Assembly: GCA_002710775.1 (NCBI GenBank)
Contig: PALX01000006.1
Span: forward strand, 1 to 40,245
DNA: 40,245 nucleotides
Reading direction: 5' to 3'
From: Micavibrio sp.
GTDB taxonomy: Bacteria > Pseudomonadota > Alphaproteobacteria > Micavibrionales > UBA9664
The stretch's first letter is position 1. Each line of letters opens with the position of its first letter. Under the pieces are notes generated by a model. That model searched no databases and was not told the origin of the DNA. It saw only the letters and a list, made by a program, of their open reading frames with translations. Of this stretch, positions 27,887 to 33,344 are shown piece by piece. The position numbers and the translations under genes are program-made.

Positions 27887-28222
27887 TTATTCGTCATTCA
27901 CATGAGACATTGTCTCATAGGAACGCACCGCGTTCATTTGACGCACATTGCCAAGATCCTGCTCAGCCGCCGCCTGACCGATCCAGGCCGACATATTTGT
28001 TACCGAACCAGCGCCGCGATATACAGGTGTCTTAGGACCACGCATATCATCAACACCGCCCATAACATCAGCAAGACGCTTTTCAAGGTCGAACATACGC
28101 TGCGCACGGATATCGTATTCATCCCAACTTGCTTGGTCGAATGCATCGGCTCTGTCTTTACTTCTTACGCGCTCTTTTTTGCTTTTAACGGCTGGCGCGT
28201 AGTATTGTCCAATAATATCCAT
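27887..28222 (-). CDS. Small uncharacterised protein under a CtrA/GANTC-type control region
   Basis: Not recognised. The 111-residue protein is basic near the N-terminus (VKSKKERVRSKDRAD) with a helical middle (RAQRMFDLEKRLADVM) and a C-terminal half containing NMSAWIGQAAAEQDLGNVRQ. It has no signal peptide or membrane helix. It is judged real from a clear ribosome binding site (AAGGAG, 12 nt before ATG) and from the regulatory sequence upstream: a perfect TTAA-N7-TTAA box and two GANTC sites, the marks of cell-cycle-controlled genes in alphaproteobacteria. Confidence 0.7.
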   Translation of the reverse strand: MDIIGQYYAPAVKSKKERVRSKDRADAFDQASWDEYDIRAQRMFDLEKRLADVMGGVDDMRGPKTPVYRGAGSVTNMSAWIGQAAAEQDLGNVRQMNAVRSYETMSHVNDE

Positions 28223-28249
28223 GACACTTATATACTCCTTTTTTACTCT

Positions 28250-28278
28250 CGAATCAAGATTCGTTAATCATTTATTAA
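28250..28278 (-). promoter_or_regulatory. Candidate CtrA box with paired GANTC methylation sites
   Basis: TTAA (28264-28267), seven bases, TTAA (28275-28278) is a perfect CtrA consensus, and the plus-strand half site TTAATCAT differs from TTAACCAT by one base. Beside it CGAATC-AA-GATTCG (28250-28263) is a perfect dyad holding GAATC and GATTC, the targets of the cell-cycle methylase CcrM. The patch lies 28 to 56 bases upstream of the leftward gene's ATG, as expected for a -35-overlapping CtrA site. Confidence 0.55.
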
Positions 28279-28397
28279 TAAATTCAATATAATTCTTTAC
28301 TTATTTCCCAAAAAATGATAGGAATATAATCATAAACAGGCGAGTTATGCCTATATTTCATACCAACGCCCCTTCTTGCAAAAGGTTCCCACCAATT

Positions 28398-28664
28398 ATG
28401 AATTTTTTAGAACTGGATATCTTAAGCCTGCCCACCGTGGCGGCTTTTTTTATTATGATCATTGTGAATGCCGCCGTCACAAGCGTGACGCTTAAAGGCA
28501 TCAAGACTGAAGTTGAGAAGCTTGAGAAAAAGCTTGATCAATTACATACGCAACTCCTGAAGATTGCCGTCCTTGAAGTGCGCCTTGGCCATCTTGAAAA
28601 AGATTTAAACAAGACAAGCGCCCGCCTCGACACTATCGAGCAGACTATTGTGTTCAAAGTATAA
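28398..28664 (+). CDS. Small membrane protein with coiled coil
   Basis: Not recognised. The 88-residue product has one N-terminal membrane helix (about 11-30, PTVAAFFIMIIVNAAVTSV), then a charged coiled-coil region of about 50 residues with heptad-like Leu spacing (VEKLEKKLDQLHTQLLKIAV and on). Such proteins are often structural or division-associated, but nothing here proves a role. The start is ATG 28398, with AAAGG 14 nt upstream; an earlier in-frame ATG at 28347 lacks a site and would bury the helix. It is divergent from the CtrA-linked small gene. Confidence 0.65.
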   Translation: MNFLELDILSLPTVAAFFIMIIVNAAVTSVTLKGIKTEVEKLEKKLDQLHTQLLKIAVLEVRLGHLEKDLNKTSARLDTIEQTIVFKV

Positions 28665-28672
28665 AGAAATAG

Positions 28673-29782
28673 CTATTTGTTCTTAAGCTGCTCTAGCACT
28701 GCAAAAGGGGAGTCTGAATTATCATCCTGATCACCCTTAATCGAAACCGTGATTGATTTCGGCGCCTGAGACTTGGGCTTGCCCCCAGATTTCCCATTAG
28801 GCTTTCCTTTAGCTTTATCGCCCTTTTTAGGCTTTCTAGCTTTAGGCTTGCTGAATTTCGGCTTTTCCTTAGCCTTACCAGACATCTTACCGCGGCGAAG
28901 CTCAAACATATCCAAGCCAGGCAATCCAGTACCACCCTCGACTTTTTCGCCCGACGGCACTTCTTCAGCGCCGTTTGCTTTTTCAGGCTCCGCACCACTT
29001 TCTTCAGACGCTTGCTCATCTGACACAATCCGCTTATGCCCCAAAGCCTCAAGAATTTTATACAGATCCTCAATCGTACAGCCAAGCCATTCACAATATT
29101 GATGCTTAGCCTGAAACTTCCAATCTTTTGAACTGTCATATATATCAACAACAACACGGTCCAGCATATCAATACGCATCGCACGCGGACCATATACCGG
29201 ATAACCAATCATTTGGTACAAATCTTTATCAATCTGCTTACCCTCAATATTTTCAGAAACAATACCATCCGCAGGAAGCTGTACAGGCAGGTCATGGCCA
29301 TGCCAGATAGCCCATAATATTGCACGCAGTCTTATCGCCGCAGGCTTATTAAGCAGTGGAATAAATGCCAAGATCGGGCCGAGACGTATTTTCTTAAAGC
29401 GTAATTGAGAGCGGCCTTGCTCATCCAGCGCGGCGATTTGATCTTCCAATTCAGCGCGCGGGACAACACCCATCGCCGCATGGAGCTTTTTACAAATCTC
29501 CGCAGGCGCGCCCGTCAAATTAGGATCATCCAGCGCCGTTAACAATTCCAGCTTTTCCGTTATATGTTGATTAAGCCAGCGATTAAGATGCTTCTCAGAC
29601 GCCTCTTTAAGATCATCACTTTCCCACTCAGCTTCAAGCAAAGCTACATTTGGCTCAAATAGAGCATCTCCCTTAACAATCTTAGCCACGGGAACGCCAG
29701 GCAGCGGGTTGTTTTTAACCGATTGCCATAAAATTTCACCGTTATCGTTTAAAGATAGCTGATTATTATCAAACTTACTCAT
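28673..29782 (-). CDS. Free-standing C-terminal region of alphaproteobacterial Suv3-like helicase
   Basis: The 369-residue protein matches the region after the helicase core in the large alphaproteobacterial Suv3/MgpS-type RNA helicases. Diagnostic blocks are LPGVPVAKIVKG, WLNQHITEKLELLTAL, LRFKKIRLGPILAFIPLLNK, LRAILWAIWHG and YGPRAMRIDMLDRVV. No P-loop or DEAD-like motif is present, and only 126 bases separate the ATG from a divergent gene, so the helicase domains are missing here rather than overlooked. The last 120 residues are Lys/Pro/Gly-rich (KPKFSKPKARKPKKGDKAK), likely an RNA-binding tail. It may act alone or with a helicase encoded elsewhere. Confidence 0.75.
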   Translation of the reverse strand: MSKFDNNQLSLNDNGEILWQSVKNNPLPGVPVAKIVKGDALFEPNVALLEAEWESDDLKEASEKHLNRWLNQHITEKLELLTALDDPNLTGAPAEICKKLHAAMGVVPRAELEDQIAALDEQGRSQLRFKKIRLGPILAFIPLLNKPAAIRLRAILWAIWHGHDLPVQLPADGIVSENIEGKQIDKDLYQMIGYPVYGPRAMRIDMLDRVVVDIYDSSKDWKFQAKHQYCEWLGCTIEDLYKILEALGHKRIVSDEQASEESGAEPEKANGAEEVPSGEKVEGGTGLPGLDMFELRRGKMSGKAKEKPKFSKPKARKPKKGDKAKGKPNGKSGGKPKSQAPKSITVSIKGDQDDNSDSPFAVLEQLKNK

Positions 29783-29908
29783 TTTTATTCTTTAGTCCTT
29801 TTTTCGCTCCCCGTTTATGCGATACCCAATGTTTTAAGGGTTTTTAACCTGTTTGACAATGGCAATTATTGCTTTACTACCCTGTGATTAGCGCTTAATC
29901 TGCCTGCT

Positions 29909-32699: not shown

Positions 32700-33344
32700 A
32701 TGAGTAAATATCCTATCACAGCGCAAACGCTTGAAATCTTGTCTTCCCGCATCTGTCACGACCTTATCGGCCCAGTAAGCGCCGTTAATAATGGTGTCGA
32801 GTTTTGGGAAGAAATGGGCGCTGATGCTGGTGACGATGCCATTGGCCTTATTGGCCATAGCGCGGCGCAAGCCTCATACAAATTACAGCTATTTCGCCTC
32901 GCTTACGCATCTGGCGGCGCTGAAATTCACGTTAAGCTCGACGATATCAAAGCCGCTTTTTCAAACTTTATAGAAGAATTACGCGCAGAGCTTGTATGGG
33001 AACTCCCAGAAGCGGCATATGAAGGCGCCCTCCCCAAAGGTTTTTGTAAAGTAGCCCTAAACCTGATGATGGTGGGTGTTGATATGCTTCCTAAAGGTGG
33101 CAATATTGTCGTTAAAGATTCTAGCACTGGAGAAAATCACAAAATTCACATCTCTTTGGAAGGTGAAGACCTAGCCGTCAATATCGACTACAAAGACGCA
33201 TTGGACGGAAAAACAAAACCTGAAAATCTTTCTCCAAAAACAGTGCATCCTTACATGACCATGGCCTATGCCGAGCAATATGGTTTACGCGTTGATATTG
33301 AACCTACAGATGCTGGTGTTTGTTTTAGCATTTCCAAAGCTTAA
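32700..33344 (+). CDS. chpT: Histidine phosphotransferase ChpT
   Basis: Passes phosphate from the hybrid kinase CckA to CtrA and CpdR in the alphaproteobacterial cell-cycle relay. The 214-residue protein has the dimerisation and phosphorylation helix SSRICHDLIGPVSAVNNGVE with the phospho-accepting H20, followed by the degenerate ATPase-like domain that marks ChpT. Its presence supports the class assignment and makes the CtrA-type box at 28264 more meaningful, because the relay that activates CtrA is encoded 4.4 kb away. Confidence 0.88.
   Translation: MSKYPITAQTLEILSSRICHDLIGPVSAVNNGVEFWEEMGADAGDDAIGLIGHSAAQASYKLQLFRLAYASGGAEIHVKLDDIKAAFSNFIEELRAELVWELPEAAYEGALPKGFCKVALNLMMVGVDMLPKGGNIVVKDSSTGENHKIHISLEGEDLAVNIDYKDALDGKTKPENLSPKTVHPYMTMAYAEQYGLRVDIEPTDAGVCFSISKA

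Follow-up and report, generated by a model that had tools for sequence, protein, structure and literature searches.

Promoters of Caulobacter are the closest described counterparts of the locus reported here. In the passages of a promoter study that concern them (PMC4287350), the P2 promoter of Caulobacter ctrA is activated by a full CtrA box at −39, podJ P1 has one N6 box at −49, and transcription starts with a GANTC between −10 and −35 make up one timed class; at both ctrA and podJ, the GANTC is associated with a different start from that of the box. The same passages describe the two elements close together at P2 of the Caulobacter crescentus CCNA_00877-00875 operon, with TTAC-N7-TTCA at −39 and GANTC at −35. 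Methylation-dependent binding of GcrA has been shown for Caulobacter promoters, according to the relevant part of PMC3667746. An extended GANTC motif, YGAKTCK (which includes TGATTCG), has been proposed for activation by GcrA in Caulobacter, and the sections of PMC7987155 that make this proposal also state that no such preference of GcrA for the extended motif or TGATTCG was seen in Brevundimonas. CtrA regulons of other alphaproteobacteria have been predicted from the position of boxes upstream of genes, as described in portions of PMC2877005, and our inference is of the same kind. The word Micavibrio is absent from that survey, so that the order is not covered there under that name, and we found no paper among openly licensed PMC papers in which Micavibrio and CtrA appear together. 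The pertinent parts of PMC9296519, a study of another metagenome, report methylated GANTC in Micavibrionaceae contigs and CcrM homologues in the alphaproteobacterial genomes.

The window analysed here is a stretch of 40,245 nucleotides from a Micavibrio sp. genome. Within it, a 175-base spacer (28223-28397) separates two divergent genes: a gene of 111 amino acids on the minus strand (27887-28222, with its ATG at 28222), which is the probable target of the promoter, and a gene of 88 amino acids on the plus strand (28398-28664), which encodes a coiled-coil-like protein and is a possible second target. The preliminary description had reported a perfect TTAA-N7-TTAA beside two GANTC sites, 28 to 56 bases ahead of the start of a small gene, and this is what the spacer holds: the CtrA box, TTAATCATTTATTAA, occupies 28264-28278, 42-56 bases from the ATG of the 111-amino-acid gene, and the GANTC sites begin at 28251 and 28258. 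A distance of one base between the box and a 14-base dyad had also been given; it holds for the box-proximal GATTC (28258-28262) but not for the full 14 bases (28250-28263, CGAATC-AA-GATTCG), which form two perfect 6-base arms around a non-palindromic two-base centre and abut the box. The second GANTC (GAATC at 28251-28255) is separated from the box by eight bases and lies within a TGATTCG on the minus strand (28250-28256), which fits the extended motif YGAKTCK. Closer to the gene, an AGGAG on the minus strand (28235-28239) is a probable ribosome binding site; it had been called strong, which is slightly generous because its 12-base spacer to the ATG is rather long. A search of 28150-28450 for sigma-70-like promoters found none, compared with 1.2 in shuffled sequences.

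This arrangement is like that described for CCNA_00877-00875 P2 in the passages cited above, in that a full CtrA motif and a GANTC lie close together upstream of one gene. It differs in that the box is perfect, the transcription start is inferred and the gene is small and genus-specific.

The 111-amino-acid gene was found in 2 of the 142 genomes of the order, which are both genomes of one genus (of 54 genera); the 88-amino-acid gene has the same distribution. Between the window genome and this single relative, the 111-amino-acid protein is 51% identical. The description of the gene as uncharacterized was borne out by searches with the protein, which matched no Pfam family up to an E value of 1, nothing in PHROG up to 0.1 and a single NCBIfam model at 0.058, far under the cut-off of that model; a scan of viral contigs and genome contigs recovered no relatives. 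A profile built from the two sequences reached nine more genomes (E values of 0.02-0.1) over only 27-60 of the 111 positions, and we took these matches as chance. The structure model of the protein is helical and, with a mean pLDDT of 59.8 and a pTM of 0.24, too weak for use; the protein is probably small, largely helical and lineage-specific. For the 88-amino-acid protein, family searches returned only sub-cut-off matches of the coiled-coil type. Beyond the pair lies a gene of 369 amino acids (28673-29782) that was found in 110 of the 142 genomes of the order. Thirty loci were fetched for this gene, and the 28 from outside the genus held no match to either the 111- or the 88-amino-acid protein; in 8 of these, in which a prenyl synthase gene was also in view, other reading frames fill the intervening space. 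As both proteins are missing from the out-of-genus loci and other frames lie between the flanking genes, the pair looks like a gain in this genus, loss elsewhere being possible.

The spacer of the relative contains a GAATC (L006:1833-1837) followed by a box, TTAACCTTTTGTTAA (L006:1846-1860), and in both genomes the start of the GAATC lies 13 bases from the start of the box. The distance from the start of the box to the start of the minus-strand gene is 56 bases in the window and 57 in the relative. We placed the box of the relative by direct reading of the spacer; the MAFFT alignment misplaces it. A stretch of the minus strand, TTGATTCG, is kept in both genomes, and the box, TGATTCG and the spacing between them persist while most of the spacer diverges. 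Conservation of the box ahead of orthologues, which had been named as a check, is therefore found at the one orthologue available (1 of 1, in the same genus), where the box and one GANTC are kept at the same spacing. The palindromic GANTC pair, which had been put forward as a unit, is not conserved as such: the box-proximal site is absent from the spacer of the relative, which retains only the gene-proximal TGATTCG on the minus strand. As a chance baseline for the kept box and GANTC, we used 20000 Markov-sampled sequences modelled on the spacer of the relative. A box occurred anywhere in 2111 of these; in 235 it fell no more than 10 bases from the corresponding position, in 114 it had a GANTC at most 12 bases away, and in 1 it had a GANTC at the same spacing.

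A second block, TAGGAATATAxTCATAAACAGGCGAxxxxGCCTATATTTC (28319-28359, plus strand), is also kept in the relative, ahead of the 88-amino-acid gene. Its 41 bases are conserved at least as well as the CtrA box and include an AGGCG/YGCCT inverted repeat. In the window, the predicted hairpin folds no better than shuffled sequences do (z = −0.38); for the relative, the advantage is slight (z = −1.65, with 13 of 200 shuffles as good). The hairpin also scores as terminator-like on both strands. The block may combine the core promoter of the 88-amino-acid gene with a short hairpin in its leader; alternatively, it may be a terminator-like hairpin.

We looked for an absence of ctrA or ccrM, which the preliminary description had listed as counting against a cell-cycle promoter, and found both genes present, together with that for GcrA. 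CtrA (L017) matches NF045991 with 408.9 bits (cut-off, 350), and its receiver domain matches PDB 4qpj. The CcrM homologue scores 527.8 bits to PDB 6pbd and 609 bits against a Caulobacter-specific model, under the cut-off of 830 for that model; GcrA scores above the Pfam cut-off. The statement that chpT lies in the same window proved correct: the gene for this histidine phosphotransferase of the CtrA phosphorelay is at 32700-33344 on the plus strand (PF10090, E = 4.6e-27), and its product scores 148.2 and 119.6 bits against two ChpT models, under their cut-offs of 240 and 225. The upstream region of ctrA itself contains TTAATAAAGGTTAA and TTAATAAATGTTAA as well as AGATTCG (L017, G000:C43, upstream of base 1069). 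These two boxes, 33 bases apart (L059:8068 and 8101), are TTAA-N6-TTAA and not N7, which suggests that this genus may use N6 spacing as well as N7. The gene divergent from ctrA resembles, we presume, fliI. Upstream of the longest frame of ccrM there are four GANTC sites within 70 bases (L022, G000:C34, upstream of base 1366), even though few GANTC occur in the genome sample.

On these grounds we consider it fairly probable that the spacer contains a CtrA-bound, CcrM/GcrA-sensitive, cell-cycle-timed promoter of the genus-specific 111-amino-acid gene. Phosphorylated CtrA would bind the TTAA-N7-TTAA box and recruit RNA polymerase to the gene, and ChpT, encoded 4.5 kb away, would feed the phosphorylation of CtrA. 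CcrM would methylate the GANTC between the box and the gene and GcrA would read its methylation state, which would confine transcription of the gene to a particular part of the cell cycle. We would expect CtrA to activate rather than repress at 28264-28278. Setting the first base of the box at −39, by analogy with Caulobacter ctrA P2, would place the transcription start at 28239, 17 bases ahead of the ATG, and the conserved GANTC at −12 to −16. A position between −10 and −35 follows only if the box begins near −39, and the spacer has no sigma-70-like match. With that placement the locus would be like the GcrA/CcrM promoters of Caulobacter as portrayed in the cited passages, with a conserved TGATTCG and homologues of CcrM and GcrA encoded in the genome; unlike at those promoters, GcrA binding and methylation are here predictions from the DNA sequence. 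The proposed mechanism departs in nothing from what is known in Caulobacter, and the control that probably times the 111-amino-acid gene to the cell cycle is of a known type. The earlier reading of the motifs as marking such a promoter is supported in part, by the presence of CtrA, CcrM and GcrA and by the kept box and single GANTC; for the palindromic pair as a unit there is no support.

Motif statistics bear on this reading in both directions. TTAA-N7-TTAA occurs once in the window compared with 1.68 expected, and at least once in 86 of 100 shuffles. GANTC occurs 48 times compared with a mean of 139.6 (s.d. 10.8, 100 shuffles), a threefold depletion; of the eight patterns of this form that we counted there, it is the scarcest (48 versus 77-185). 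Given so strong a depletion, it is unusual for two GANTC sites to lie 7 bases apart next to a box. An enrichment of N7 boxes across the genome was ruled out, as the 36 found show no excess over the 50 boxes with N10 and 58 with N4. We compared their locations in a 343,905-base sample chosen around the N7 boxes, in which counts for other spacings therefore represent part of the genome. Intergenic boxes make up 25 of the 36 with N7 and 86 of the 205 with other spacings (P = 0.002), on the basis of gene calls from a simple caller of our own with approximate starts. A GANTC lies at most 12 bases from 6 of the 25 intergenic N7 boxes and from 4 of the 86 intergenic boxes with other spacings (P = 0.008), a count from which coding boxes lacking GANTC neighbours were left out by design. 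The proportion is 5 of 24 without the box of the window itself (P = 0.02), and it becomes 6 of 36 versus 16 of 205 once coding boxes are counted in (P = 0.09). A reversed control of the composite pattern gave 8 + 3 matches on the two strands compared with 6 + 2, and the parts of this control are commoner (68 versus 36 boxes; 942 CTNAG versus 546 GANTC). The extended motif YGAKTCK is common, with 128 occurrences in the 343,905 bases, 11 of them TGATTCG.

In 8 of the 36 gene pairs compared, which represent five intergenic regions, a box stands ahead of the gene in both genomes. The sample of the relative comprised stretches around part of its 79 boxes; because both samples were picked for N7 boxes, the computed expectation for shared boxes does not serve as a fair control, and these pairs allow no comparison with other spacings. 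N7 boxes are also found upstream of the genes for FliF, FtsK and a PAS histidine kinase, of a gene for an SRP54-type GTPase that reads like FlhF, and before those for an ATP synthase subunit, an MlaA lipoprotein and several proteins without a family. For many other N7 boxes, the gene that follows is no classical CtrA target or belongs to no family, and the evidence on the meaning of the N7 motif in this genome is mixed. A 199-amino-acid gene and a divergent Mg-chelatase/ComM-like gene (L034:4352-6665, L075) have a common CtrA box with GATTCG directly after it, at the same distances in both genomes (62 and 47 bases before the 199-amino-acid gene); the 199-amino-acid protein has no Pfam family.

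Several of these results count against a promoter at 28264-28278: the single orthologue comes from the same genus, the genome shows no excess of N7 boxes, many of which precede genes outside the classical CtrA targets, the search for sigma-70-like promoters found none, the boxes of ctrA are N6, CcrM falls below the cut-off of the Caulobacter model, the association with GANTC weakens to 6 of 36 versus 16 of 205 when coding boxes are counted, and the reversed control, though made of commoner parts, gave more matches than the composite pattern. The lack of a TGATTCG preference of GcrA in Brevundimonas counts on the same side. In a spacer rich in A+T, the box could have arisen by chance and the GANTC pair by coincidence, as the expectation of 1.68 boxes per window, the missing genome-wide excess and the presence of a box somewhere in about one in ten modelled spacers would allow. 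We nevertheless regard this as very improbable, given that the relative retains the box and one GANTC at the same spacing in a spacer that has otherwise mostly changed, that the arrangement of box and GANTC recurs at other intergenic boxes and that GANTC is depleted in the window.

If the box is functional, its symmetry means that it could mainly serve the divergent 88-amino-acid gene, or both genes, since the plus strand also has a perfect TATAAT (28288-28293) whose distance from the box start is 24 bases. The equally narrow distribution of the 88-amino-acid gene fits this assignment. However, the TATAAT is not kept in the relative, and the distance from the box to the start of the 88-amino-acid gene differs between the genomes (134 versus 168 bases), whereas that to the 111-amino-acid gene barely does. 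The separate conserved block at 28319-28359 is nearer the 88-amino-acid gene and contains the only sigma-70-like match of the relative (1 found versus 0.9 in shuffles). Service to the 88-amino-acid gene thus appears unlikely to us. A similarly doubtful possibility is that CtrA represses here, or mainly shields the adjoining GANTC from CcrM and so sets the local methylation state. A synthetic Caulobacter promoter in which three GANTC sites overlap two CtrA boxes is only partly methylated, as stated in the relevant portion of PMC5172544, and the GANTC at 28258-28262 is one base from the box. Yet this nearest GANTC is the one that is not conserved, and the conserved GANTC is eight bases off the box. 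Activation of the 111-amino-acid gene by CtrA remains the reading that we prefer.

A bolder extension, which we hold to be decidedly improbable, is that the pair of genes arose in or entered one Micavibrio-like genus and was wired to CtrA, GcrA and CcrM through a composite box-TGATTCG switch, at which CtrA binding and methylation would act together. The proteins of the pair would then have a lineage-specific job timed to the cell cycle, for example, as markers of the cell pole or of a predator's attack phase. On the reading that we prefer, the locus would already be a case of an old master regulator acting on a young gene. Together with the boxes at the four other intergenic regions common to both genomes and those of ctrA, the site provides a testable shortlist of predicted CtrA targets for the order.

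The 369-amino-acid gene next to the pair has no Pfam or NCBIfam match. Its match in several genomes is an open frame of more than 900 amino acids, so what is part of a longer protein there may be a gene of its own here. A TTAA-N6-TTAA lies between this gene and the next, at 29834-29847.
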